35,256 nucleotides of DNA from Candidatus Schekmanbacteria bacterium. GTDB taxonomy: Bacteria; CSSED10-310; JACPHN01. The stretch spans positions 1 through 35,256 of the forward strand of contig JACPHN010000103.1 of NCBI GenBank assembly GCA_016188575.1, read 5' to 3'. Within the stretch, counting starts at the first letter, position 1. Each line of letters starts with the position of its first letter. Under the pieces are notes generated by a model that saw only the letters and a list, made by a program, of their open reading frames with translations, had not been told where the DNA came from and searched no databases. Of the stretch, positions 510 to 31,300 are shown in pieces. The position numbers and the translations under genes were made by a program.

Positions 510-917
510 TCACGCGTCGACGACAAGCTCGCCCCGCGCATGGCCAACACAGGTCAGCACGAATCCGCGCCTCGCGTCTTCGACCGAGAGGCAGTTGGGT
601 TGCGCGAGCACCACCTCACCAGTTTCGCGGCGCACCATGCAAAGACCGCAGGCTCCGCGGCCGCAACTATGGGGCAAGTCGAGGCCCGCCCGGAGACCGG
701 CCTGCAGAATGGTTTCGCCGGGCCGCGCCAGCACCTCGACCCCGCTGCGCGCGAAGGTGATGCGGCACGCCTGCCCCGGCTCGGCAGCCGCAACGGCCTC
801 GCTGGACGCGCGCCACGCGCTCAGGAATCGCGCCAAGGTCGTGTCGCCAGCAGGTGCGTCGGGGGCCATCGCAGCCACCAGCGCCAGGGGTCGCGCACCG
901 TTGCGAGACAGGCTCAT
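510..917 (-). CDS. 2Fe-2S ferredoxin-domain protein
   Basis: A protein of 135 residues carrying a plant-type 2Fe-2S ferredoxin fold at about residues 50-135. The cluster ligands are visible: C85, C90 and C93 in SCGRGACGLC, and the fourth at C123 in LTCVGHA. This spacing (C-x4-C-x2-C-x29-C) is typical of the family, which passes single electrons to oxygenases or reductases in the cytoplasm. The first 48 residues are an Ala-rich extension without a recognised domain. The ATG overlaps the stop of the upstream methyltransferase by four bases (ATGA, 914-917), so translation is probably coupled. No redox partner is present in the window, so the substrate pathway is unknown. The family assignment is secure; the role is not. 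Confidence 0.88.
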   Translation of the reverse strand: MSLSRNGARPLALVAAMAPDAPAGDTTLARFLSAWRASSEAVAAAEPGQACRITFARSGVEVLARPGETILQAGLRAGLDLPHSCGRGACGLCMVRRETGEVVLAQPNCLSVEDARRGFVLTCVGHARGELVVDA

Positions 918-1753
918 GGCGGTCGCCTTGCGAAGACACAGTGGAGCACCGAGAGCCCGGGCGCAGGCGCGATCAGGCGAAATCGATCCGCGGCCCTCCC
1001 CAGCTCTGATGCGATCGGCTCGCTCATGACGCCGAGGTTGAGGAGCACCTCGGCGGTCCAGTTGCGGGCGCGAACGCCGTCCAGGATTTCGGCGTGTACG
1101 CCAGCCGGAGCGCGACGCGGGAAGACGGAGACTTTGGGCATCGCCTGGTAGTGAAGGGGAGGACGGTCCGGCGCGTACGTCGTGGATTCGTCGCCCCAGG
1201 GCGGATCGCTGAACACCAGGTCAGGCTGAATGTCCTCCGGCAAGGAGCTGAAGAGGTCGCTCTCGATGAGCTGGACATCGGCGTGGTGGCGGCGAAAATT
1301 CGCCGCGGCAACGGCTGCGGCCGCGGCGTCAATCTCCAGAGCGATGAGACGGCCATGCGGAACCGCCTTCTTCACACACACGGCGAGCGCCCCCGAACCT
1401 GCTCCGACCTCCACGATGATCGGTGCTCGCTCCAGGGCGAGTAAGAGCGCCCGAGCGCGCTCGATGACAAGATCGACGAGGTAGGACAGCTCGGGGTCAG
1501 TCAAGTAGACCCGCCGGTCAACCGCGAACTCGAGCCCTCTGAACACCTGAGCGCCGATGACGTAGGCAAGCGGCTCGCCGGCCAGGCGCAGCTTCAGCAG
1601 GCGCCGGAGCCGGGCATTGTCGCCGGCGCAGCGCGCCTCCAGAACGGCGAGCTCCGCGGCAACGTCGACGTGCTCTGGCGCCGCGGCCGCGAAGTGTGCG
1701 CGCAGGCGGCCGAGCTCGGAGTCTGACCGCGGGGCGATGTCGGGAGACGGCAT
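914..1753 (-). CDS. PrmC/HemK-like SAM-dependent methyltransferase
   Basis: A protein of 279 residues from an ATG at 1753, 32 bases after the kinase stop. Reading further upstream would overlap the kinase gene, so this start is preferred. The N-terminal part has the PrmC-like stretch GEPLAYVIGAQVFRGLEF (59-76). The SAM-binding motif I is VEVGAGSGAL (114-123). The catalytic-loop motif, usually NPPY in PrmC, is DPPW (183-186). PrmC methylates the glutamine of release-factor GGQ motifs, but the altered loop and the unusual tail after it suggest another substrate. The gene sits between a sensor kinase and a ferredoxin and is translationally coupled to the latter. Class I methyltransferase is secure; release-factor methylation is doubtful. 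Confidence 0.82.
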   Translation of the reverse strand: MPSPDIAPRSDSELGRLRAHFAAAAPEHVDVAAELAVLEARCAGDNARLRRLLKLRLAGEPLAYVIGAQVFRGLEFAVDRRVYLTDPELSYLVDLVIERARALLLALERAPIIVEVGAGSGALAVCVKKAVPHGRLIALEIDAAAAAVAAANFRRHHADVQLIESDLFSSLPEDIQPDLVFSDPPWGDESTTYAPDRPPLHYQAMPKVSVFPRRAPAGVHAEILDGVRARNWTAEVLLNLGVMSEPIASELGRAADRFRLIAPAPGLSVLHCVFARRPP

Positions 1754-1785: not shown

Positions 1786-4203
1786 TCAGCTCGGCTTTAC
1801 ACGCCGAGCCTCCTGCGCCACCACGAGTTGGTTCCAGGTCTGGTCGAAAAGGCGACTGATGGCGGAGGGATCCGTGTCGAACTCGCACACCGCCAGCACC
1901 GACATCGGCGGGTAGCTGACAGTATTGGCGAGCGCCTTGTCGCCCAGAAGCTCGCGCGCCGCGGTGTTTGGGCTTGCGTAGCCGAGAGCATCGGCGATTT
2001 CGGCGCCGATGTCACCTCTCAGCACGTGGTTGATGAAGTGGTGTGCCGCTTCGACGTTCGACGAGCCCGCGGGGATCGCCAGGCTGTCGAACCCGAGGTT
2101 CGAGCCCTCTTTCGGGTTGACGAACTGATAGGTTAGCGCGGTTCGCATCAGCGTGGCGGCCAGCCCATTCCACATCAGCACCAGGTCGGCGCCGCCGGTC
2201 ACGCGTTTCTTGACCTCCGCATCACCGTTGACGATTTCCCAGCTCGCGGCCGCGCTTTTGACCACCGCTTCCGCCTCGGCGATTTCGGTGGGATTGATCG
2301 AATTGTAGGAATAGCCCTTGTACTTCAGCGCGAGCCCGAGAATCTCGCGAGGATAGTTGGGGACGACGACGCGCTTCCCCGCGAGCTGCGTCGGTTCGAA
2401 GAGGACGTTCCAGCTATCCGGCGCCGCCGAGAATGACGCGGTATTGTAGAGAATGCCAATGGTCCCGTAGACATAAGGTAGCGAGTGCTCGTTCTTCGGG
2501 TCAAACTTCGTAGCGCGGAGGAATGGCGAGATATTAGTGACGTTGGGGATCTTTTCGTGATCGAGCTTGAGGAGCTTGCCGGCCTGTATGAGCTCTGCGA
2601 GGATCCCTTCAGGGACGATGATCACGTCAAGACCGCCTTTGTCGACGGCAGGGTGGATTTCCTCGAGCTTGGCGTACGGCTGGACGCGCACGGTCAGGTG
2701 CCACTCGCGCGCAAAGGTCAGCGCAGTCAGGCGGCCAATGTAGTCACTCCAGTTCAGAAGCGCCAGCAGGCCCGCGGTGTCCGGAGCCGCCAACTGCTCT
2801 CTCAGCGCAGCGTATTCCGAGAGATTCTTCAGGGCAACTGGATTGAGCGGATCTTTCTTGAAGACTTCCAGGTAGAGACTGGCGGCCTGGTCGAACTCCT
2901 GCTTATCCCAGTGTCGGTTTGCGCGCTCGAGGTCGGATTCCTCAGTAACCACGGTGGTCGGAGCGGCAATGGGCGCAGAGACGCGCCGCGACCGCTCGCG
3001 CAGGAACCCGACGCCGGCGGCGATCGCGGCAAGCAGCATCAGCGCCAGTGCGGCGTGCCGCGCGCGCCTGCGGTTGCTTGTGGCAGGGATGACGATGGCA
3101 GCGGGTTCGGGAGTCGCCCCCTTGCCGGAGGGTGCGGCCGGGACGCGCGGTCGCGGCGCAAAGGTCTCGGCACCGGCCAGGGACTCCCCGGGCAGCGCGG
3201 CCGCCTGGTCCGTGGCGCGAGCTTGCTCCAGGAGCGTGTCTTCGGCGATCCCGGAGCGCGCGGTGGTGGTGGGCGCGGCGGGGGAGGGCGCGGTCCAGTC
3301 CGGCGCGCTCACGGCTTGCAAGGGTTTGCCGAGCGCCGCGGTCAAGGTCTCCATGGTCGCTGGTGAGAGCGCCGTTGTGATCGCGACAGAGCCATCGACG
3401 CTGGCGCGGAGCGCCTGACCGAAGGCCTCGGCGGTGGGATACCGGTCCTCGGGGTTCTTGGCCAGGGATTTCAGGATCACGGCCTCGAGCTCTGCGGGAA
3501 CATCTGCCTTGATTTCCCGGACAGCCGGCACGGGTGTTTGCAACTGATGCAGCAAGATGGTGGCGGGCGTGCCGCCGGAAAACGGCAGTCTTCCTGTCAG
3601 CACGCGATAGAGTGTCATGCCAAGTGCATATTGGTCTGCTGCCGGACCGGCTTTTTCGCCGCGGATCACCTCGGGCGCCAGATACTGCGGGGTGCCCATG
3701 ACGTCGCCCGTTCTGGTCTTCACGGGAGCGGAGGGAATGAGCGCGATGCCGAAATCCATGAGGCGCGCGCGGCCGGCCATGTCGACGAGGATATTTGCGG
3801 GCTTGAGGTCGCGGTGCACGATGTCGCGTGCGTGCACGTACTGCAAGGCGTCGGCGACTTGCGTGCCGATGGCCACGGCTCGCGCCGCGGGCCACGGCTC
3901 GGCATCGCGCAAGAGCGCCTCCAGAGAGAACCCTTCGACGAGCTCCATGACCAGATAATAGGTGCCATCGTCATCCGTCATGACGTCGTAGACTTGCACG
4001 ATGCCGGGGTGAGTGAGCCGGGCGACGGTTTGCGCTTCCAGCATGAATCGCTTCTGCCAGTCGCCGGCCGCGAGGTCCGGTCGGATCACCTTGACGGCCA
4101 CGTCGCGGTCGAGAACGAGCTGGTGAGCGCGGTATACCTTCCCCATGCCGCCCTCGCCGATGACGTCACCGAGCACGACCTTACCGATTTGCTTTTGGGC
4201 CAT
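1786..4203 (-). CDS. Transmembrane Ser/Thr kinase with PotD-like solute-binding sensor domain
   Basis: A protein of 805 residues. Residues 7-268 form a complete Hanks-type kinase: glycine loop GEGGMG, K38 in VAVKVI, catalytic loop HRDLKPAN (130-137), DFG (150-152) and APE (177-179). A Pro/Ala-rich linker leads to one membrane span (about 382-401). Residues 425-470 look like a short TPR-type helical hairpin. Residues 480-790 resemble the periplasmic polyamine-binding protein PotD: NWSDYIGRLTALTF, VIIVPEG, KIPNVTNISPFLR, and YVYGTIGILYN followed by SWNVLFEP. The arrangement puts the kinase inside and the binding domain outside, implying direct sensing of a small solute such as a polyamine (inference). 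The start ATG is preceded by GGAG six bases upstream. A methyltransferase and a ferredoxin follow on the same strand. No permease or ATPase of a transporter is next to it. Confidence 0.9.
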   Translation of the reverse strand: MAQKQIGKVVLGDVIGEGGMGKVYRAHQLVLDRDVAVKVIRPDLAAGDWQKRFMLEAQTVARLTHPGIVQVYDVMTDDDGTYYLVMELVEGFSLEALLRDAEPWPAARAVAIGTQVADALQYVHARDIVHRDLKPANILVDMAGRARLMDFGIALIPSAPVKTRTGDVMGTPQYLAPEVIRGEKAGPAADQYALGMTLYRVLTGRLPFSGGTPATILLHQLQTPVPAVREIKADVPAELEAVILKSLAKNPEDRYPTAEAFGQALRASVDGSVAITTALSPATMETLTAALGKPLQAVSAPDWTAPSPAAPTTTARSGIAEDTLLEQARATDQAAALPGESLAGAETFAPRPRVPAAPSGKGATPEPAAIVIPATSNRRRARHAALALMLLAAIAAGVGFLRERSRRVSAPIAAPTTVVTEESDLERANRHWDKQEFDQAASLYLEVFKKDPLNPVALKNLSEYAALREQLAAPDTAGLLALLNWSDYIGRLTALTFAREWHLTVRVQPYAKLEEIHPAVDKGGLDVIIVPEGILAELIQAGKLLKLDHEKIPNVTNISPFLRATKFDPKNEHSLPYVYGTIGILYNTASFSAAPDSWNVLFEPTQLAGKRVVVPNYPREILGLALKYKGYSYNSINPTEIAEAEAVVKSAAASWEIVNGDAEVKKRVTGGADLVLMWNGLAATLMRTALTYQFVNPKEGSNLGFDSLAIPAGSSNVEAAHHFINHVLRGDIGAEIADALGYASPNTAARELLGDKALANTVSYPPMSVLAVCEFDTDPSAISRLFDQTWNQLVVAQEARRVKPS

Positions 4204-4350
4204 ACGTCACTCCGCGGCGCCTGTGTAACCGAAGTCCGCTGGATCGCACGCACTCCTCAACAGCTCCCGGCGACCCCACTCCGGGGAAACGATCCCGACT
4301 GTCATTCGAAAGCCCAGGCGTGCTAACCTACGTCGTGCGGTGCAGGGATA

Positions 4351-8723: not shown

Positions 8724-8756
8724 AGCTGCCGCGTGCGCGGCGGGGCGGCGAGCGCG

Positions 8757-8797
8757 ATCTTGGCAACCCCATGGCAAGATGATGCCAAAATCTTGCC
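8757..8797. repeat. Interleaved inverted repeats upstream of the Asp-box protein gene
   Basis: Two overlapping inverted pairs are present: ATCTTGGCA (8757-8765) with TGCCAAAAT (8783-8791), one mismatch, and GGCAAGAT (8773-8780) with ATCTTGCC (8790-8797), perfect. They cannot form together in one RNA, which is the layout of a switch or of paired operators. They lie about 130 bases before the ATG at 8925. Confidence 0.4.
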
Positions 8798-8846
8798 GCC
8801 GCAACTCCCTGCTGCCCGTCAGGTGCGGCTGCTGAGCTTCCGGCTG

Positions 8847-8862
8847 TGGCACGCGTCGTGCA
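8847..8862 (+). promoter_or_regulatory. Possible sigma-54 promoter
   Basis: TGGCAC and GTGCA place GG and GC exactly ten bases apart, as in -24/-12 promoters. The -12 box differs from the usual TTGCA in its first base. It lies about 63 bases before the start at 8925. No activator site was identified, so this is weak. Confidence 0.25.
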
Positions 8863-8924
8863 TGATGCCGACTACGGCTGGTGCCGCACGCGCAACAGCT
8901 CATGGCCGGTGGGGAGAAACACAG

Positions 8925-11582
8925 ATGTATCGGGCACGAATCTTGATAACCAGTATTGTCGCACTCGTAGGGAGCGGTCTTCTTGCCGGAGCTCCGGCGC
9001 ACGCAGTCGCGCCGTGGTCAGTCCAGCGTAACGCGCTGTGGCGAGCAAACCTGCGCTCCGTGTACTATTCCCCGGGCGGCTTGAACGGCTACGCGGTCGG
9101 CGCCAGCTCGCCGCTGTGGCTGTTGACGACAAGCTATAATACCGGCGAGGACGCGCTCATTCTGGCGACCACCGACGGTGGTGAGACGTGGCAGGAGCAG
9201 GTTTCGGGTGTCAGCGGTGACCTGAGGGCGGTAACATGTGTCGCGGGAGGAGCGTGCTGGGCCGTCGGGGATGCGGTGCTGCGCACTACCAATAGCGGCG
9301 TGAGCTGGGAGCAGCAGAGCAGCAGCGCTCCGGGAGCCCTCGATGTTGCCTTCTTCAACGCGACGAGCGGATGCATTGCTGGCGACGAAGCCATTTATTG
9401 CACGGCGGACGGCGGCGCCACCTTTGCGCCCACGCTCGCGGTCGAGGGGACGCAGTTCGAGACGTTGTCCGCGCTGGCGGAGGGCGCGGTGGGCTGGGCT
9501 GCCGGCGTGCATACCGCGCAACTCGGCGCCAACCCGCAGGTCGACATTTATCGCACGGGGGACGCGGGCCAGAGCTGGCAACCCATGGCGACGGTCAGCG
9601 GCGCCGGTGCGACGCCCGCGGGGTGTGCAGATCTGTGGTTTTTCGACGAGCTGGCGGGACTACTCGTCGCGCATGGAGCGGCGGCGCGCACCACGGACGG
9701 CGGTGAGACTTTTTCGGCGATCACCGAGCTCGATCCCATGCCGGTGCTCGCAACGAATCCGGCCTGTGATCTCGCGTTTGCCGATGCCACCACGGGATTC
9801 TTGTCCCTGGGTCGCACCAGCGTGGTCTATCGCACCACGGACGGCGGGGCGCACTGGGGTGCGGCGGCGAAGGTGCAGCCGTCACTGCCCATCGCGGACC
9901 TCTCGGCGACTACGGGGCTCACCGTCACCATGGCCGGTGACGGCGGCGCCCTGGGGCGCAGCAGCGATGGCGGGCAGAGCTGGGAGCTCGGGGATGGCGG
10001 CCCGACCGTGCCCAGACTGCAGCTCCGCATGCGGGACTCCGAGCGGGCGTGGGCGGCCGGGCCGGGGCCGGTCGTGGAACGAACCACGGACGGCGGCGTG
10101 AGCTGGGAGCTCCTGTCTCGCCGGTTGCCACTGCCGCCGACGCCGTTCGACGGTCCCGGTGAAAAAGTTCGGATCGCCACGTTTGGCGAGAGCTACACGT
10201 GGGTGCTGAAAGATGATCCAGGGCGCTTGTGGGCGACTACGGACGGCGGTGAGACCTGGGAGCTGCGCAGCGCAGGGGCGTGCGCGGAAAGCATCGCCTT
10301 TGGATCCGAGCTCACGGGTTGGTGTCTTGGACCGGGCCTTGTGTATGGGACCACGGACGGCGGGTTCTCGTGGAGCTCGCAGGCCATTGGCGCGGCCGGC
10401 GGTGGGGCGCTGGCGGCCATCGACGAAACGCACGCCTGGGCCGTCTTCGAGGTAGGGCGCGTGCTGAAAACGGCGAATGGCACGACCTGGCAGCCGGTGT
10501 TCGCCACCGGCAGCGGCGTGCGGCGCGGTGTGTCCTTCTTCGACTCGCTTTCGGGCTGGATCGCCGGAACGCCGGCGCTGCGGACCACAGACGGCGGCGC
10601 GACCTGGCAAGACATGGCTGCGGAAGCGAGCCTGCGGGCCGGGTTCTGGAGCGGTACGAGCGGATTTCTCATGAGCGACGAGCGCCTCTACTGGTCCAGT
10701 GACGGCGGGGCTTCGGCGCAGGAGATGACGCGCTTCAGCGCGGCGCTGCCGCTGCTTGACCTGGCGGTGCGGGGCAACGAGACGGGACTGGCATCGTCTG
10801 ATGGCGGCAGGATCGAGGCGTCAAGAGCGGTGATGCCTCCGGACGGTCTACAGGTGCAGTCGGTCGGGGCCGATGGAGCGCGGCTGGTGTGGGCCCCGGG
10901 AATGGGAACGATTCCCGAGGGCTACCACGTCTATCGGTCGCTCGCTTCGACACAGCGGTTGGCGCGCCTGACCGCGGTGCCGGTCACGGCGACGAGCTAC
11001 CTCGACAAGACCATTGCCGGCGACACCTCGTACGTGTACGCCGTCACCGCCGTGCAGGCAGAGGTGGAGAGCGGCCTCGGGCAGCGCCTGGGGCTGTATA
11101 TGGGGACTCCGCAGAGCGAGACGACAGGCGGTGGTGGGGAGCGCGCCTCCGGGGCGCTGGCGGTGATCTATCGCCCGGACGGCCAGGCGATCACGCCCGG
11201 CTCGGCGAACCCGGAGGCTGGTGTGGAGTGCGGCGGCGAGGGCTTTGCCGAGTGGTGCTTCATCGCGCAGCCCGCGGCGGGGACGTGGACGGTGAGGGCA
11301 CAAGCGGGCGCCGGAGACGTGGCGATTCAGATGCGGCCGGCGACAGCACCGCCATCCGGACGGGTGGCGCCAAGGGGGAAAGCGAACGGGGACGAGGCAA
11401 GTCGCGGTCCGGGATATGCGTTCGGCCTGGCGTTATCGCGGCCCGAGAAGTCGGACGGCATGCTCGTGCAGGTTCTCCAGTTCCTGCCCGCGAGCCCGAC
11501 GCCGCTGTCGCCGGCGGCGGTCGCCGCTGGCGCGCTGGTACTGGCGCGCCTGGTAGGGGGCCGGCGCCGGCGCCAGAAATAG
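8925..11582 (+). CDS. Secreted Asp-box (BNR/Ycf48-like) beta-propeller protein with FN3 domain and membrane tail
   Basis: A protein of 885 residues. The ATG at 8925 is preceded by GGTGGGGAG and starts a signal peptide (ILITSIVALVGSGLLAGAPAHA). About 13 Asp-box motifs follow (TTDGGETW, TADGGATF, SSDGGQSW, TTDGGVSW and so on), spaced roughly 40-70 residues, as in seven-bladed propellers of the sialidase/Ycf48/VPS10 type; the number suggests two propellers. Next is a fibronectin type III-like domain (PPDGLQVQSVGADGARLVW to TSYVYAVTAV), then a beta-rich domain ending TWTVRAQAGAGDVAIQM. The end is a Pro-rich segment, a hydrophobic stretch (LSPAAVAAGALVLARLVGG) and RRRRQK, resembling a C-terminal sorting or anchoring signal. 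It is probably on the cell surface. Ligand unknown. Confidence 0.88.
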   Translation: MYRARILITSIVALVGSGLLAGAPAHAVAPWSVQRNALWRANLRSVYYSPGGLNGYAVGASSPLWLLTTSYNTGEDALILATTDGGETWQEQVSGVSGDLRAVTCVAGGACWAVGDAVLRTTNSGVSWEQQSSSAPGALDVAFFNATSGCIAGDEAIYCTADGGATFAPTLAVEGTQFETLSALAEGAVGWAAGVHTAQLGANPQVDIYRTGDAGQSWQPMATVSGAGATPAGCADLWFFDELAGLLVAHGAAARTTDGGETFSAITELDPMPVLATNPACDLAFADATTGFLSLGRTSVVYRTTDGGAHWGAAAKVQPSLPIADLSATTGLTVTMAGDGGALGRSSDGGQSWELGDGGPTVPRLQLRMRDSERAWAAGPGPVVERTTDGGVSWELLSRRLPLPPTPFDGPGEKVRIATFGESYTWVLKDDPGRLWATTDGGETWELRSAGACAESIAFGSELTGWCLGPGLVYGTTDGGFSWSSQAIGAAGGGALAAIDETHAWAVFEVGRVLKTANGTTWQPVFATGSGVRRGVSFFDSLSGWIAGTPALRTTDGGATWQDMAAEASLRAGFWSGTSGFLMSDERLYWSSDGGASAQEMTRFSAALPLLDLAVRGNETGLASSDGGRIEASRAVMPPDGLQVQSVGADGARLVWAPGMGTIPEGYHVYRSLASTQRLARLTAVPVTATSYLDKTIAGDTSYVYAVTAVQAEVESGLGQRLGLYMGTPQSETTGGGGERASGALAVIYRPDGQAITPGSANPEAGVECGGEGFAEWCFIAQPAAGTWTVRAQAGAGDVAIQMRPATAPPSGRVAPRGKANGDEASRGPGYAFGLALSRPEKSDGMLVQVLQFLPASPTPLSPAAVAAGALVLARLVGGRRRRQK

Positions 11583-11870: not shown

Positions 11871-14800
11871 TCATCCCCCGGAGGGGACAGCGGCCTCGGC
11901 GGCGTGTTGCAGCCAGGGCAGCGTGCCGCCGGGAATGCTGCCGCCCCGCTCGCCCCGAAAGAGAATCTCACCGCACGAGCGCGCATGTTCAGCTCGCCGG
12001 AGCTCGGCGAGATTCTCGGTATCTGCCCCAGGCACCATTTCTTCCGTACGACGCGCGGTCAGCGCCTGGGCGTAGTCAATGGCCGAGCTGGCGGATTCGC
12101 CCCGCGCGAGGGCGGCGTGGCCGCGCTCCACGGCGCATTCCAGGAGCACGCCGGCATGCGCCTGCGATTTTCCGAGCTCCTCCGCTTCACGGAGTAGCTG
12201 AAGCTGGCTTGCCGCGGGCATTGCCAGCCTACGCTCCAACGCCGCCAGTGAGATGAGCGTCCGCGCGAGAAACACGGGCTCACCGATCTGCCGGAACGTG
12301 GCGATAGCTTCGCGAAACAGCGCCTCGGCTCGCGAGGGCTGGCCGCACCTCATCTCCAGCTCGCCGAGGTTGCCGAACGTAATGCCGAGGAATCTCCTGT
12401 TGCCAACTTCCCGGTGGGCCACGATGGCCTCCTCGTACAGCCTCCGGGCATGCTCGACGTCACCCTGCCGTTCGACCAGCACGGCCAGGTTTGAGGCCGT
12501 TTCTCCCCAGTTCGCGCGGTTTCCGATCTGATCGTGGATCGCCAGCGCCTGCTCCCAAAGCCAGCGCGCGGCCGCCACGTCGCTCTCGCTCGCGGCGATC
12601 ACTCCGAGGTTGAGCAGTGCCAGACCCTCGATGCGCCGATCCTTGATCTTCCGCGCCGTGCGCAGAATCCCCTCGAGGATGCTGCGCGCCTGTCCACTCT
12701 CGCCACGCCCTCCGTACATGCTCGCGAGGTTGGTCGCGATGGGCATCATCGCCTTCCATTCGCCAGCGTCTTTCAGCCAGGTCAGCGCCTGGCTGGCGGC
12801 GGCGATTCCTTCGTCGACGCGACCTTGAAGCCAGTAGACCGCGCCCAAGTAGCCCAGGCTGATCGCCTCGCCGAGGTGATCGCGACAGTGCCGAAGCTGC
12901 TCGACCGCGGCCAGGTAGAGCGGTTCGGCCTCCGCAAGGCGTCCCAGAGCCAGCAGCGATTCCGCGCGCCCGGCCGTGCAGCGAATCCGCTCGCGTTCGA
13001 GCCCAAGCTCCTGGGCCAGGGCGCCGGCGGCGGCGAAGGCGGCTTCCGCCTTTGCGGTCTGCCCGCCCGCGAGCAACACGCTCTTGGCCAACTCGCAGCG
13101 AAGCTCGAGCACTTCCAGGTCGCGCGCGGGCAGCAAGCGCAAACACGCCTCATAAAGGGACTCGGCGTCGCTCAGCGCGAATCGATCGCGCGCGCTGCGC
13201 GCCGCGGCGAGGTAGCATTCGGCCGCGCGGCGCGTGTTGCCCGCGCGCTCCCAGTGATAGGCGAGGTCCGCAAGGTGCTCGTCCAGCACCTTCGCGAACA
13301 GCTCTTGCATGGCCTTTGCGACGAGCCGGTGCAGCTCGCGTTCGCTGTCCCCGGCCAGCTCCGCCATGGCCAGGCCGCGGAAGTGGTCCGAAGTGAAGCG
13401 AAGAACGCCGGGCCGGTCCTCGATCAGAATCTCGTGGCGCATGAGCGCGGACACACCGTCGTGGAACGCATCCGCTTCGAGCTGGGCAACTCTGGCCACC
13501 AGGCGGGAGTCGCAGCGCCTGCCAATCACCGCGGCCACCGACAGCACCGCCCGCGCCGCATCGTCCAGACGCTCCAGGCGCGTGTGCAACAGCGCCGTCA
13601 CCGATGTAGGGCGGGGCAGAGCCGCCAGGGCCGCGTCGGCCTCGTCGTCGTTCGCGGCCGCCAGGCGCCAACCGCCGGCCGCGTTCCTCTCCAGCAACCC
13701 TTCAGACACCGCCATGCGCAAGTATTCCGTGGTGAAATACGGGTTGCCGCCGGACTCGGCGAGCACGTGTCGGTCGAGCGCAGTGGGCAAGGTGTCAACC
13801 GCCAGCATTTCGCGCATCATGTTGCGGAGGGGTTCCTCCTCCAGCGCACCGAGACCTACCGCGCGCACCCTGGGATGTTCGGCCAACTCGAGCAGTGCCA
13901 CGGACGCGTTTTCCGTGCGATAGGCGCCGAGGATCAGCAGTTGCGCTTGCGTCGCGCTGCCGGCGCGCGCCACGAAGCTCAGGAAGCCAATGGTCATGTC
14001 GTCCGCCCACTGCAAGTCGTCGATGGCCACCACGAGACCCTTGTCGTGGGCGATAACGCTGAGCGCAAAAAGCAGACTGCGATAGACGCGGATGACCGCC
14101 TGGCTCGGGGGAAGCTCCTCGACCAGCGGATCGGAGTCCATGCCGAGCGCAGCCCGCAGCGGTGGATGATACGGAGCGAGAAACGGCCACACCGGGCCGA
14201 GAGCATCCATGGCGGTCACGCTGTCGCGCTCGCGACACCAGTCGGTAAGCAACTCGAAGAACCGCTGGAACCCGGCAAGCGCCCCGACCCCGAGGCGCCG
14301 GGACGATTCCGCCGAATCACGGCCTCCAAGGCCGTTTTCCGCCACCACGGCAAGCTCTCGGCGCGCCAGTTTCTTGCCTACCTCGCCCATGAACCGAGTC
14401 TTGCCGATGCCGGCAGGCCCATGAACCAGTAGGATGGCGACACCTACGGAGCCGCTGAGGAGCTCGCGCAGGCGGGTAAGCTCTTTCTCGCGCCCCAGCA
14501 GCGGCGACGAATACATGTAGGGACAGCGCGGCTTCGGGCGCGGGAAGTGCCTGGTCCCCGCAGGAGCCCTGGCGTCTTCAAGGACCGCGCTCACCTCGTC
14601 GGCGTAGCCGACGCGATGCCGGGCTTCCTTGGCGAGCATGCGGGCGAGCAGCTCCTCCACCTTGGTGGGAAGCTCGGGCACCACGACAGAGAGCGGCCGC
14701 GGCTTTCTGCTCAGGTGACCGCGGAGCACTTCGCTCGGCGACCGGCCCAGGAACGGAGGGTATCCGGTGAGCATTTCATAGAGAATGCAGCCCAGCGCGT

Positions 14801-15593
14801 AGAGGTCGGCTCTGGCATCGACAGTTTCGCCGCGGATTTGCTCGGGTGCCATATACGAGACGGTGCCTGCGGCCCCGACGTCGACGTCCAGCGACGCTCG
14901 CCCGACGCCCGCCCGCGACTGCAGCGCCAGGCCGAAGTCAACGATGACGGGGGTTCCGTCGGTGCGCACGATGATGTTGTCGGGCTTGAGATCGCGATGA
15001 ACGATGCCTTCGGCGTGTAACACGGTGAGGGCATCGCAGAGCGGAATGATGACGGATGACGCCGCGGCGAGACGCCGTTCCGGAAGCGATTTGCTCGCAT
15101 CAGCGCTGCCGGCGAAGAAGAGAAGTGCGTCCGCGGAGACAGGCAGGCTCTCCGCTGGGGGGGGCGCCACAACGTCGTCCGCCAGGCCAATCACCGTATT
15201 GGCCAGCGACGCGGTCCACCACTCCTGTTGCGAGGTCGGCGTGAACGTGAAGCCCGGCGATGGCGCGTCAGACGGCGCAGGGCGGGTCACCTGCGTTTCC
15301 GTCCAGGCGTTGGCGATGAGACGCCGGAGTGTCGTTCCGGTGACGAGCTCCATGGCGTACCAGGGCATGCCCGCCTCGTCGCCGCTCTGCAGAATACGAA
15401 CGATGCTGGAGTGGCTCACGCGGCTCAGAGCGCGAACTTCGCGCCGCAGCGAGCCCGCATAGATGCGGCTCGGAGCGGTCATGGCCTTGACGGCAACCAT
15501 CTCCCCGCTCAGCCAGTGCTCGGCGCGATAGACAACGCCCATGGCGCCCTGGCCGAGAAGTCCGAGGAGGCGATACGGTCCGAGTCTTTCCAT
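11871..15593 (-). CDS. PknK-like Ser/Thr kinase with AAA ATPase and TPR domains
   Basis: A protein of 1240 residues from the ATG at 15593; an upstream start at 15644 would add 17 residues that do not look like kinase. Residues about 3-345 are a Hanks kinase (glycine loop GQGAMG, lysine in VAVKAM, HRDLKPDN at 199-206, DFG at 219-221, YMAPEQIRGE). An unusual insert of about 80 residues (94-176) separates the lobes before LCDALTVLH. Next is a STAND/AAA-type ATPase with Walker A GPAGIGKT (392-399) and Walker B VVAIDDLQWADD. The C-terminal part is a series of TPR repeats (for example NLAVLVERQGDVEHARRLYEEA). This order matches large signalling kinases of the PknK group. There is no membrane span, so it is cytoplasmic. 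It converges with the Asp-box gene. Confidence 0.92.
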   Translation of the reverse strand: MERLGPYRLLGLLGQGAMGVVYRAEHWLSGEMVAVKAMTAPSRIYAGSLRREVRALSRVSHSSIVRILQSGDEAGMPWYAMELVTGTTLRRLIANAWTETQVTRPAPSDAPSPGFTFTPTSQQEWWTASLANTVIGLADDVVAPPPAESLPVSADALLFFAGSADASKSLPERRLAAASSVIIPLCDALTVLHAEGIVHRDLKPDNIIVRTDGTPVIVDFGLALQSRAGVGRASLDVDVGAAGTVSYMAPEQIRGETVDARADLYALGCILYEMLTGYPPFLGRSPSEVLRGHLSRKPRPLSVVVPELPTKVEELLARMLAKEARHRVGYADEVSAVLEDARAPAGTRHFPRPKPRCPYMYSSPLLGREKELTRLRELLSGSVGVAILLVHGPAGIGKTRFMGEVGKKLARRELAVVAENGLGGRDSAESSRRLGVGALAGFQRFFELLTDWCRERDSVTAMDALGPVWPFLAPYHPPLRAALGMDSDPLVEELPPSQAVIRVYRSLLFALSVIAHDKGLVVAIDDLQWADDMTIGFLSFVARAGSATQAQLLILGAYRTENASVALLELAEHPRVRAVGLGALEEEPLRNMMREMLAVDTLPTALDRHVLAESGGNPYFTTEYLRMAVSEGLLERNAAGGWRLAAANDDEADAALAALPRPTSVTALLHTRLERLDDAARAVLSVAAVIGRRCDSRLVARVAQLEADAFHDGVSALMRHEILIEDRPGVLRFTSDHFRGLAMAELAGDSERELHRLVAKAMQELFAKVLDEHLADLAYHWERAGNTRRAAECYLAAARSARDRFALSDAESLYEACLRLLPARDLEVLELRCELAKSVLLAGGQTAKAEAAFAAAGALAQELGLERERIRCTAGRAESLLALGRLAEAEPLYLAAVEQLRHCRDHLGEAISLGYLGAVYWLQGRVDEGIAAASQALTWLKDAGEWKAMMPIATNLASMYGGRGESGQARSILEGILRTARKIKDRRIEGLALLNLGVIAASESDVAAARWLWEQALAIHDQIGNRANWGETASNLAVLVERQGDVEHARRLYEEAIVAHREVGNRRFLGITFGNLGELEMRCGQPSRAEALFREAIATFRQIGEPVFLARTLISLAALERRLAMPAASQLQLLREAEELGKSQAHAGVLLECAVERGHAALARGESASSAIDYAQALTARRTEEMVPGADTENLAELRRAEHARSCGEILFRGERGGSIPGGTLPWLQHAAEAAVPSGG

Positions 15594-15847
15594 GGGACAG
15601 TGCGCGGCTGGTCGGAGAACAGTACGGTGGGCTTCTCTGATCACTGTACATCGGAGTGCTCACCCGCGCCAATGGCGGAGCAAGGCCTGGATCCACCGCC
15701 CGTTCGCCGCCCGGCGTGACCGTGCCCCCTCCGTCCCTCCCCCCGCACGCGGCGTGAGGTACCGCCAGATCGCACCGTTCGGGTTCGCCCGACCCACCTC
15801 CCCAGCACAGCAGCAGGTTGTTGAGGGCCTGGTTTCGGAGAAACTAC

Positions 15848-25539: not shown

Positions 25540-27483
25540 ATGAGTGCTCGGATGTACTGGGGATGGTTGTTTATCGGCTGTGCGGCCGTGGCTTCTGTTA
25601 TTTTTGGTATGGTACTCCATGATCTGCACAAGGAGAGGATGCCTGCTGTGGCAGGGCACGAACACACTAGACGCGCAGAGATAGCCATCATCCAAGAGCA
25701 GCTTCGTACCGCGCGCAATGTCTCGCTCTCTTTCGCACTGAGCTCCACGTTGCTTGGTGCAGGCCTTCTCGCCTCAGGGTACCGCTCTCCTCGTGTTCGC
25801 ATGCTACGAGCGCTGAGGAAGCATGACTTCAAGAAGGCAGAATTCTGGATGTCCGGCTTGGATGCGAAGGTCCTCGCAAGGAGCTTGTTCGACGCCATTC
25901 GAAGTGGAAACATCGATATCGTGGATTGGCTACTCGCGCACGGTGTCGATGCGAATGCTGCCGTTCCGCTGTCTGCACCTCCGCTACTGGAAGCCGTGGC
26001 ACAAGACAGTCCGGAATTGGTTCGGCGGCTCCTGGCGGCCGGTGCTGATCCGAACGTACAGTATGGCGACGAATCGCTCCTTGGCTGGGTTTGTGCGTGC
26101 GGTGATGACACTCTCCTCCTGGAGTGCATCCAGGCTGGAGCCGATGTGAACCTCCCCACAAAAACCTCTCCACTGCTTTGTGCCATTCGCGATAGTGGCA
26201 AACGAGACGTGGTCTCGAAGTTGCTAGCAGCGGGTGCACACGTGGATGCAGGGGGTAGTCATGACGAGCGCGCCACACCCTTGATGTGGGCGGCAGCCTT
26301 GGGTCAGTTCGAAGTCGTTGAAGAACTGCTGCTCGCGGGCGCCGACCCAAACGCCTTGGACGCGAACGGGAAATCTGTTTTGGATTGGGCGGAGGCTGGT
26401 GTATCGGACTCTGCCCGCGCCGCGCGCCTCAGAAGCTCCTCTGGATACCAACCGGAGCCATCTGCACATCTCAAAGTCATGAAGTGTCTGACAAATGTGC
26501 CGGGGGAGGTTTCAACCTCACAACCCGCACCTGTTCAGGCTCCGCGCACGCACCACGACCTGACCGAACAAGGTGGACAAGACCATGCTGTTCCCGGCAG
26601 CACGACGGATACGATCCAAATTACGGGAAGCTCTTCGATTCCTGCGTCTGCTGGTGTCGCCAGCAAATACGATGAACGATGGGAGTTTCTGGATAAGGTG
26701 AAATCCGCTTACAAGCCAGACCATGTCGATGTTCCGTTGACTCCGCGCGCACGGGCCTTGCTGCGGCTCGGCTCTGCTGCGGCAGGACTCGCCGGGGCTG
26801 TTGTGTATGGATTTCTCTACTATGGTGTAACATTCGCCAGGGCGGAGCTTCACTTTTTCTGGGCATTGGCTGCGACCATCGCTCTGTTCTCCTTTTTCCC
26901 TGCCTTGGCAGGTTCTGCGGCTGGCTGGGTCCTCGCCCAAGCTGCCATCTTGGCTCATTGCGCGAGTCAGCGTGCCATGCGCGTGGCAGCGGTCTTCGCA
27001 GTGGGAGGTGCTGCCATTCTCTTCGCCATGATTCGAATCCAGGTTTTTGGAGATACTGTCTCCGACAGCGAATTCCTCATGCTACCTCTCATCGTGATAG
27101 GGATACCACTAGCCATCATCGTTAGCAAAGAAATCATTAGTAAGACCCCGTTCTGTGGAAAATGCACTCAATTCTATCAACTGAGACGATCTCCGGAACA
27201 CGCAATGAGCCGACTAAAAGAGATACTGCAGGCATGTGAAGTATGTTCCTTTGGCCAAATCAATAGCGTATTCTCTGTTGAAGTGAATGAGGTCGGTAAT
27301 CCGTTTGTCTATCTTGAGCTTCGATATTGTCCGGAGTGCAAGGCCACTGGTCTCCTTGAGACCCGTGTCGCAAAGAGTTATCAAATAACTTCCAAGGCGG
27401 GGTCGTATCAGAGCGTTGACGAGAAGCTGGTCTTCTCCAGGATGTTGAAGGCAGATGAGCTCAAGGCGCTTGGAATTGCGTAG
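25540..27483 (+). CDS. Ankyrin-repeat, multi-span membrane protein with zinc-ribbon-like cysteines
   Basis: A protein of 647 residues. Two membrane spans at about 8-26 and 62-80 are followed by five or so ankyrin repeats (about 112-300: LFDAIRSGNIDIVDWLLAHGVD, LVRRLLAAGADPN, TPLMWAAALGQFEVVEELL, seen in pieces). Next comes a Ser/Thr/Gln-rich linker (about 315-375). Four more spans lie at about 408-432, 437-470, 480-500 and 511-530. The C-terminal soluble domain has three CxxC pairs: C539/C542, C566/C569 and C597/C600, probably metal-binding. Codon use and base composition are clearly more AT-rich than in all neighbours, pointing to recent transfer. GAAGG precedes the ATG. It lies between an RNA methyltransferase gene and a defence operon. 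Function unknown. Confidence 0.85.
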   Translation: MSARMYWGWLFIGCAAVASVIFGMVLHDLHKERMPAVAGHEHTRRAEIAIIQEQLRTARNVSLSFALSSTLLGAGLLASGYRSPRVRMLRALRKHDFKKAEFWMSGLDAKVLARSLFDAIRSGNIDIVDWLLAHGVDANAAVPLSAPPLLEAVAQDSPELVRRLLAAGADPNVQYGDESLLGWVCACGDDTLLLECIQAGADVNLPTKTSPLLCAIRDSGKRDVVSKLLAAGAHVDAGGSHDERATPLMWAAALGQFEVVEELLLAGADPNALDANGKSVLDWAEAGVSDSARAARLRSSSGYQPEPSAHLKVMKCLTNVPGEVSTSQPAPVQAPRTHHDLTEQGGQDHAVPGSTTDTIQITGSSSIPASAGVASKYDERWEFLDKVKSAYKPDHVDVPLTPRARALLRLGSAAAGLAGAVVYGFLYYGVTFARAELHFFWALAATIALFSFFPALAGSAAGWVLAQAAILAHCASQRAMRVAAVFAVGGAAILFAMIRIQVFGDTVSDSEFLMLPLIVIGIPLAIIVSKEIISKTPFCGKCTQFYQLRRSPEHAMSRLKEILQACEVCSFGQINSVFSVEVNEVGNPFVYLELRYCPECKATGLLETRVAKSYQITSKAGSYQSVDEKLVFSRMLKADELKALGIA

Positions 27484-28087: not shown

Positions 28088-28314
28088 TCAGGCGAGAGTC
28101 CCCGGGGTGAATTCGAGACGGGGGCGGGTCTTCTCCAACTTCACGACATTCCAGTCGCCGGCCCCGCACCGGCGATCTCGCCCGCGGTCGCGATCGCTCG
28201 CCGCCGCTCGTCATCCAGCGCCGGCACGGCGTCGCGGTGCAGGTAGAGCGCGCCGCGGATTTGCTTGCCGGCGTGCGGAGAGCCCGATTCGCAACCGTGT
28301 CGGCGCGCCGTCAC
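28088..28314 (-). pseudogene. Truncated, frameshifted start of a dnd-associated putative methyltransferase
   Basis: A GTG at 28314 overlaps the stop of the DptH-like gene (GTGA). The frame reads SPHAGKQIRGALYLHRDAVP and on to AGEIAGAG, then stops at 28141. One base out of frame the sequence continues as DWNVVKLEKTRPRLEF and ends at 28088, where repeat-like sequence begins. HAGK-I-GALY-H---LP followed by NVVKL is how I remember the N-terminus of the 'DNA phosphorothioation-associated putative methyltransferase' family, normally several hundred residues long. So the gene seems to carry a 1-nt loss near 28155 and to be cut off after about 75 codons. Family assignment is from memory. Confidence 0.5.
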
Positions 28315-31300
28315 GCTTCGCTCGCCCCGTCCGCTGGCCATGAGGCGACGACTGCGTCCACGAGCACGCCCATTTCCTCCTGGTCCGCAAATGGCACCTG
28401 AGCCAACTTGATGTCGTTTTCCCCCGACAGCTTCGCCGCCAGTTGCCCCTTTCCGAGGAGGCTCGCCGCCACGGGATCGTCGAGGACCAGCTCGGAGTTG
28501 CGGCGGTCGGAAACCTTCAGGACGAGGCGGTTGGCGATGTTCGCGCGGACGAGCGGCGGTACCGCGTCCTTGTCGGGCCGCTGCGTGACCAGGACGATGC
28601 TGATCCCCGCCGCGCGGGCCTTCGCGCTCAGCCTGGTGACGCTGGTCTCGATGGCGCGCCGATAGTCCGCAAGCACCATCCAGTCCGCCATTTCGTCGTG
28701 AAATAGCCAGATGAAGGGCAAGCGCTGATGCGGCCGCACCGCACAGTTGAACTGTTCGAGCTTGCTCACCCTGGCCTCCTGGAAGAGCGCATAGCGACGT
28801 TCCATTTCGTCGACGAGCCACGTGAAGGATTCGACGGCCGCCTCCCGCGCCGTGACCAGACCGCCATCCAGATGCGGCATCCGGCACAACCACTGGTAAT
28901 CCACGCCGGCCTTGGGGTCGATCATGCGGATGCGCGCCGCGGCGGGATCGTTGGTGGAGCAGATGTCCAGCAGCAGGTTCTGGACGAGCACGCCCTTGCC
29001 GCTCCCCGTTTCTCCCGCGATGAGCGTATGGGGGGCGTGCTGCGGCTGCCCGGCGAACGCTGGCCCGACGTTCAGGTAGAGGAGCTCGCCGTCAGTCTCC
29101 TTGGCTCCGAGCAGCAGCGAGGTGTTGAACCGCGGTGCGGTCTCCACCAGCGGTCGCTGCCGCCAGAGCTCCCGCAGGTGCAGGATCGCTCGCTGGGGGC
29201 GGCGAACCATTACCGCCACCTCTCCCGGGGCGCCCGAGATATTGATGACGTCGAGCGCCCGCGAGGTGAGCAGCTCCTGACGGCGCCGCTCCAGCTTCTG
29301 CACCGTCAGCTCGTCGGTGCCGCGAAACCGCACCAGCGCCGCGTTCGGCGTCAGTCGACTGCCAAGCACCTCAGAGGTCATGTGATAACTTCGCAGCGCC
29401 TTTTGCAGCCGCTTGACGGTGTCATCGAGCCATGCTCGATGGCTGTCGTCGAGAGGCTCGGTATTCGCCCGAGCAAGCCAACGTCGCACCGGTTCTGGCC
29501 ACCTGTCGCTCTCCACGCCACCGTGTTCCGCCTCTCCCGTTGCGCGCTCACTGGCAGGCCGGCGGCCTCCTTCCGCGTATTGCCCAGGCGCGCGACGCTG
29601 CTCGTCGCGCTCTGACCGCGGGCCGGGGCCCGGCGACCCCGCGTCGTCTTCGCGTGGCGGTTCGGCCGCGGTCGACCTCGGCTCCGACAATAGTGCTGCC
29701 TCCCATCGCTCGTTCCGCTCCCTGTCGGACAGCGCTACCCGGGTTCCGTTGGCTACGGCCTCGACCAATCGCCTGACCGCGTCGAACGCGAACACCTCCT
29801 GCATGCAGTGGGTAACGTCAGGGCGGATCGACTCGATCCGCGACGCGATGCCGGCATCCGCCTCGTGTACGAAGATGTGTGAGAGCCCGAGCAAGCTCAC
29901 CGACACGTGGTCCTGCCGGATTTCGCGAGACCAGCGGTTGAGGTCCCAGCCGGCGACCGGCACGTCATCGAAAGGCTCCATCCCTTCGAGCATCAGGTCG
30001 GCGAGGCGCTCGAGCCAGACCTTGCGATCGACGCGGTCGCGGCGCGGATCGATCGCTCGCGCAACTCGCTGGACCGTCTCGATAAGCTGAGAGCCGGACT
30101 TGCGCGCGCCTTGTCGATAGGCGTCGGGCCCAACGAATTTGCTCTCCGTTACCACCAAGTTGAGCAGCGGCTGCCCGCGAGGGTCGACCGAGGGGTTGAC
30201 CGCCAGGATATCGGCAATCTGTCCCTCGCGCTGTCCGAACCAGGTGGCGAAGTCATCGAGAAAGAACCATCCGATATGGCGGTCGTTTGCGGCTCGCAGG
30301 AGCGCCCGCACCTGCATCATACTCAGCACGACGCCCATGAGCTCACCGGCAAAGCAACATTGACGCGCCGCTCTCATCACGATCTTCCCGGACAGCTCCG
30401 CCGCCTGGGCACTGAACCGTTCGGCGGCCTGCCTGCAGTCGTCCGGCCGAACATGCAGCAGAATGTTCGCCAGACACTGCTGGAGCACGGCCAACAGCAA
30501 CGGCGATTGTGCCATGGTCGAAACGATGAGGCCGCGATGGGTCGTGCGGTCGTTGACATACCGGATGATCTTGATGCCGCGGTCGCGATAGAGGCGGCGA
30601 TCGGCCAGCGCGTCGTAGCAGGCCACCCAGGTGCCGATTTCGTGTGCTCGGTCGAGAATACGCCCGATTCCAGTATCCTGAAACCTGACTCTGCGGACCG
30701 GCAAACCCGGCCGAGTCTCGGGGCGCCCTCGGGCCATCGTCTCCAGCGCGTTCAAATAGGATTGCCCGGCCTGCGGTTGTAGCGGGCAAGCGAGGTAGAC
30801 CGCTGCCGTCTGGTCACCGCGAGCCACCGGCCTCCGGCGCGACCACTGGGGGGGCGTGTGCGTCGCGAGGTCGGCAGCCTCCTGAAACGGGGACGGCATC
30901 CAGTCCAACTCGGCGCTTCGCGCGACGACATCGTGAAGAAAGACGATGTCCGCCGGGGGGCGGCCATCGCTGCGGCCGAGCTGTCCGAGCTCCGCGAACC
31001 CGACGCGTAGCCGCGAGAGGAAGTTTCGGGAGGATTCGCTCGAGAGCACCGCCTCCGCATCGTCGCCGATCGCCGCGTTTTGCTGCTCGTAGATTCGCCG
31101 GGTTCTTGCCGGGTCATCATGGCTGACGAGCAGGTGGCAACGCAGATCCGCGTCGCCTTCGACTCGGCGGCCTAGCTCTTCGGCGAGCGCCCCTGGCAGC
31201 ACTCCTGCTTCTGGGTTGTACAGCACTACCGAAAAGCCTGCGCGCGCGTGCGGCTGTAGCTCGAGATATTGCTCGCTCACGGTTGCGAACTGCCTGGCGG

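Follow-up and report, generated by a model that had tools for sequence, protein, structure and literature searches.

Does a serine/threonine kinase of Candidatus Schekmanbacteria use a PotD-type polyamine-binding domain as its outer sensor, and could such a protein turn the binding of an external solute directly into phosphorylation? The question is raised by one gene in the window, i.e., the whole stretch of 35,256 nucleotides analyzed here, for which a first-pass annotation had proposed an intact Hanks kinase, one membrane span, and an outer domain with PotD-type signatures.

Domain layout of the fusion protein

The gene runs on the minus strand from 4203 to 1786 as a single continuous open reading frame of 805 amino acids with an ATG start, and its parts are as follows.

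1786..4203, minus strand: kinase-PotD-like fusion gene, 805 aa (continuous open reading frame; GGAG at 4210-4213, 7 to 10 nt upstream of the ATG)
3424..4170, minus strand: Hanks Ser/Thr kinase domain, residues 12-260 (Pfam Pkinase, 8.3e-53; motifs)
3067..3393, minus strand: Ala/Pro/Thr-rich, putatively cytoplasmic linker, residues 271-379 (without a Pfam match; GC 0.74)
3001..3057, minus strand: sole predicted membrane span, residues 383-401, with RRRAR just before it (Kyte-Doolittle)
2788..2931, minus strand: weak TPR-like hairpin adjoining the membrane, residues 425-472 (TPR_16, E = 0.014, below the cut-off; helices in the model, mostly of low confidence)
1822..2790, minus strand: PotD-type solute-binding domain, residues 472-794 (NCBIfam PRK09501, 2e-43; PDB relatives; AlphaFold2; fold matches)

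The claim of an intact kinase was borne out, as all Hanks motifs are present (GEGGMG at 16, VAVK with K38, E56, HRD at 130-132 within HRDLKPAN, DFG at 150-152, and APE at 176-178) and the Pkinase profile matches at 8e-53. NCBIfam NF033483, a model of PASTA kinases, covers the kinase part with 324 bits (N-terminal part only; cut-off, >450 bits), and no PASTA repeats were matched in the whole protein by Pfam and NCBIfam searches. By motifs and profile, the N-terminal domain is thus a Hanks-type Ser/Thr kinase with predicted activity. PknB-type receptor Ser/Thr kinases have the layout predicted for the fusion, i.e., a cytoplasmic Hanks kinase, one span, and an extracellular C-terminal sensor, whereas their outer domains are PASTA, TPR, NHL, or PEGA modules and that of the fusion is a solute-binding protein.

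The only clear hydrophobic peak of the protein is at residues 383-401 (Kyte-Doolittle, 19-residue maximum of 2.16), in accordance with the single span proposed earlier. Since Arg-rich stretches flank this span on both sides (RRRAR before it, on the kinase side, and RERSRR after it), the positive-inside rule cannot settle the orientation, and we place the kinase inside because it needs ATP. Inspection of the sequence revealed no signal peptide belonging to the PotD half itself.

Fold and ligand pocket of the outer domain

The PotD-type signatures noted in the first-pass annotation lie at residues 484 (NWSDYI), 579 (YGTIGILYN), and 599 (NVLFEP), and the proposed family membership was upheld by profile searches, in which Pfam SBP_bac_8 matched the outer part at 4e-20 and the NCBIfam PotD model matched residues 472-794 at 2e-43. 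The latter score, about 150 bits, is far from the equivalog cut-off of 582 bits, a cut-off passed by only one of the nine control genomes with a match to that model. The closest solved relatives by sequence were Lmo0810 (4gl0; 2.5e-39) and E. coli PotD (1pot; 2.3e-38).

An AlphaFold2 model of residues 405-805, for which the input alignment consisted of the fusion and 41 PotD relatives, had a mean pLDDT of 85, with values above 90 across most of the PotD domain. It shows a periplasmic-binding-protein fold, as had been anticipated. Its top matches in the PDB were all polyamine-binding proteins, i.e., 4gl0 (Z 39.5; rmsd 2.2 over 318 residues), pneumococcal PotD (Z 38.8), SpuD (Z 38.0), and PotD (1pot; Z 37.0), followed by remoter opine-, GABA-, and sugar-binding proteins with Z of 27-31. 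Because the input alignment was made of PotDs, the model supports the fold jointly with the sequence matches and not independently of them. Taken together, a PotD fold of the solute-binding superfamily is strongly supported for the outer domain by profiles and model.

We mapped the pocket on Klebsiella PotD, in E. coli numbering, using a 43-sequence alignment (the fusion and 42 PotD relatives). The spermidine contacts of PotD, which we take to be W34, E36, Y37, S83, Y85, D168, E171, W229, W255, D257, and Y293, correspond to the following positions in this alignment.

2740..2751, minus strand: W485, S486, D487, and Y488 (PotD W34, T35, E36, and Y37), kept
2605..2613, minus strand: loop P531-E532-G533 (PotD S83 and Y85), lost
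2344..2346, minus strand: E620 (PotD E171), kept
2170..2172, minus strand: W678 (PotD W229), kept
2086..2094, minus strand: G704 (PotD W255), lost, and D706 (PotD D257), kept
1978..1980, minus strand: Y742 (PotD Y293), kept

The comparison gave a divided answer. Seven contacts are kept or conservatively changed, including the equivalents of W34, Y37, D257, and Y293, which occur in 42/42 relatives, and those of E36 (as D), E171, and W229. On the other hand, S83 and Y85, found in 42/42 and 40/42 relatives, respectively, are replaced by P and G, and even when the loop is shifted by one, placing E and I there, neither the serine nor the aromatic ring remains. The W255 position, W or F in all 42 relatives, is occupied by G. 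D168, S211, and Q327 also differ in the fusion, although they vary across the PotD family anyway, and the first strand region of the domain deviates at conserved Y, N, and D positions in the same alignment. The replacement of S83, Y85, and W255 by P, G, and G could change ligand binding or abolish it. The domain as a whole is not decaying, because it departs from 16 of 67 strongly conserved columns and several divergent, free-standing PotDs of this alignment do so no less often (19/69, 17/71, and 16/71).

As judged from these residues, the pocket has an acidic and aromatic core suited to a cationic ligand, with predicted extra room at the Y85 and W255 sites. We read it as a predicted binding pocket with changed specificity rather than as proof of polyamine binding, and a cationic ligand is plausible for the outer domain. 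PotD and PotF proteins (1pot, 4gl0, 7xjm, and 1a99) resemble the fusion in fold and in roughly half of the residues that contact the ligand. In contrast to these secreted, free-standing proteins, the domain studied here is the C-terminal part of an 805-aa kinase, lacks a signal peptide as well as S83, Y85, and W255, and was found without potABC.

Genomic context and occurrence

The absence of transporter genes next to the fusion gene, also part of the earlier description, agrees with the identity of its neighbors, which are a PrmC-like methyltransferase gene, a 2Fe-2S ferredoxin gene, tRNA-Val, thiE, and rho. The two nearest on the downstream side are as follows.

914..1753, minus strand: PrmC/HemK-like methyltransferase, starting 32 nt past the fusion stop (TIGR03534, 7e-29, below the cut-off)
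510..917, minus strand: 2Fe-2S ferredoxin-like protein, overlapping the end of the methyltransferase gene (Pfam Fer2, 1.3e-14)

These two genes are possible operon partners of the fusion gene; no link to polyamines is apparent for either product. Elsewhere in the window, we observed a second kinase of 1257 aa with Pkinase, an AAA_16 ATPase domain, and TPR repeats (11871-15644, minus strand); a protein of 949 aa rich in BNR/YCF48 photosystem-assembly-type repeats (8733-11582, plus strand), ending in a hydrophobic stretch and then basic residues, like a surface-sorting signal; a 1791-aa protein in which Pfam matched only an FtsK/SpoIIIE domain, close to the C terminus (28311-33686, minus strand); and a 647-aa ankyrin-repeat protein (25540-27483, plus strand).

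The source assembly is a metagenome-assembled genome of 9.2 Mb in 275 contigs, 94% complete, from a small phylum. No PotD relative other than the fusion was found in its own genome or among the eight genomes of the phylum that were searched. Two further SBP_bac_8 proteins in the genome are one of the maltose type and one without a family and without a match to the PotD model. Among the 32 permease matches of this genome, 20 could be typed, and these were Opp/Dpp (oligopeptide/nickel), sulfate, maltose, phosphate, phosphonate, polar amino acid, and taurine-like permeases and one without a family, with no Pot-type permease among them. The lack of another PotD relative and of a Pot-type permease among the 20 makes a transport role unlikely, and the lack of both a signal peptide and a free-standing form implies that the cell deploys the PotD-type domain solely within the kinase chain. 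A spermidine-synthase-family protein is encoded, so the host may make polyamines. Besides, the genome contains at least 188 Pkinase matches, many of them in single-span proteins with TPR, PEGA, or NHL modules beyond the span. The lineage is thus rich in kinases and often joins different modules to them, and the fusion is but one of its numerous sensor-like kinases.

Other kinase-PotD fusions were sought in about 1,560 genomes (386 domain-wide, about 390 in each of three phyla, and one four-genome phylum, with Myxococcota, Planctomycetota, and Acidobacteriota not covered in depth). More than 350 of these genomes had PotD relatives, and no second fusion was seen. Most of the sampled PotD frames of at least 650 aa were inspected, some low-scoring ones excepted, and none of them contained a kinase domain; in high-GC genomes, such long open frames are often just stop-free upstream sequence. 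A single-sequence scan of GTDB contigs returned no close relatives of the fusion, and an alignment-based scan returned, as its 80 best loci, only free-standing PotDs of at most 459 residues from stop to stop, mostly from Bacillota, and no kinase motif was found at distances up to about 4 kb. In plasmid and phage collections, no match covered 80% of the protein.

Outside this genome, the most similar PotDs share only 35-38% identity, and the closest of them (G1551, 38%) is an ordinary transporter PotD in a complete potABCD operon. Another candidate (G276, locus L141; about 593-598 aa) proved to be a PotC-PotD fusion, not a kinase, in a pot operon with adjoining potA- and potB-like genes. Such proteins (see also NCBIfam MMSYN1_0195) likewise hold a PotD domain and a membrane partner in one chain, whereas their partner is a transporter permease within a pot operon and here it is a kinase. 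A 570-aa PotD at a further locus (L142, 2100-3812) has a long insert including a Glu-rich stretch, a C-terminal transmembrane tail, and adjoining permease genes.

The kinase-PotD fusion is therefore rare and rests here on one genome, and no orthologue demonstrating selection on the fusion or its pocket was found in the other genomes, GTDB, plasmids, or phages. Some actinobacterial proteins carry the product name "bifunctional serine/threonine-protein kinase/ABC transporter substrate-binding protein" in RefSeq, which limits the novelty of kinase-solute-binding fusions in general; that name was absent among the 60 plasmid kinases listed.

A putative single-chain receptor kinase

We consider it probable that the fusion is a single-pass receptor Ser/Thr kinase with a cytoplasmic kinase domain and an outer PotD-type flytrap that binds a small solute and switches autophosphorylation. 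Three other explanations have to be weighed against this one. The outer domain may have lost or remodeled its pocket and no longer sense polyamines, serving instead for another small ligand or as a protein-binding or spacer module. This is suggested by the exchange of S83, Y85, and W255 while the 42 relatives keep them (Y85 with two exceptions; W255 always as an aromatic residue), by the deviating Y, N, and D positions of the first strand, and by a PotD score that reaches about a quarter of the cut-off. We nevertheless regard it as rather unlikely, given that the absolutely conserved W34, Y37, D257, and Y293 equivalents persist together with E36 (as D), E171, and W229, that the number of conserved-column departures is that of free-standing PotDs, and that the predicted fold has high confidence values.

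If the assembly had produced a chimeric contig, this would explain why the fusion was seen in a single genome of 275 contigs and neither in the roughly 1,560 others nor among the best GTDB loci, plasmids, or phages. However, all 805 codons lie in one unbroken frame, the two halves meet at a plausible linker and span, and the third-position GC is equal in both halves (0.785 and 0.797), which makes a chimeric assembly very unlikely; moreover, the PotD half has neither a signal peptide nor a closer free-standing parent in the genome, and the nearest PotDs elsewhere reach only the identities given above. Lastly, the outer domain might still supply an ABC importer, with the kinase as a tethered regulator of that transporter, as the domain belongs to a transporter-type binding protein and PotD-permease fusions exist elsewhere. 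With no ABC genes nearby and no Pot-type permease among the 20 typed of the 32 permease matches, we find this hardly credible.

Returning to the receptor kinase, we envisage that the N-terminal kinase would reside in the cytoplasm, anchored by the span at residues 383-401, and that the C-terminal Venus-flytrap domain would capture a small, probably cationic (amine) solute outside. The ligand would close the two lobes of the flytrap, and this closure may pass along the short juxtamembrane helices and then the span, most likely as a changed dimer geometry, turning kinase autophosphorylation on or off. We infer the membrane orientation, the ligand class, dimerization, and the direction of regulation, and likewise that ligand binding acts directly on kinase activity. 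Thus, of the one-protein receptor proposed in the first-pass annotation, the receptor architecture and the PotD fold (profiles and AlphaFold2 model) are strongly supported, whereas polyamine sensing is less certain, given the loss of three near-invariant pocket positions. The more specific reading, in which a one-component receptor kinase for a polyamine or polyamine-like cation reads external polyamine as Ser/Thr phosphorylation in a lineage without a polyamine importer, is possible, and we propose it only tentatively.

In a literature search for kinases whose outer part binds a solute in this way, we found separate-protein systems only, which agrees with the earlier statement that no characterized example was known. 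In the GlnH-GlnX-PknG system of Actinobacteria, a Ser/Thr kinase in the cytoplasm answers to amino acids by way of a solute-binding protein outside the membrane (PMC6069109, PMC9769921). In the fusion, too, a small nutrient bound by an outer solute-binding part would govern a Ser/Thr kinase in the cytoplasm. That system, however, consists of three proteins (GlnH of the SBP_bac_3 family, the four-span 4HB receptor GlnX, and soluble PknG), whereas the fusion is one chain with an SBP_bac_8/PotD-type sensor and no separate GlnX relay. In NspS-MbaA of Vibrio cholerae, a polyamine-binding periplasmic protein serves signaling and not import (PMC8079147), although two proteins are involved and the output is c-di-GMP turnover, compared with the predicted phosphorylation of the fusion. 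On this analogy, the best reading is that the fusion may work like GlnH-GlnX-PknG or NspS-MbaA in a single chain.

Solute-binding-type domains are known in general as sensor parts of receptors (PMC9602780), and the control of Ser/Thr kinases by solute-binding proteins was presented as a new role of these proteins in 2018, in a study that also named the activators of bacterial Ser/Thr kinases as an outstanding question (PMC6069109). Since the family of this sensor has known ligands and pocket chemistry, a short list of ligands is testable on one purified protein. If our reading is true, a transporter binding protein has been captured by a Hanks kinase, giving a direct polyamine-to-phosphorylation readout, and the fusion would be the shortest version of a route from solute-binding protein to kinase for which the papers found here describe only systems of separate proteins. 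It would also offer a ready scaffold for ligand-controlled kinases.
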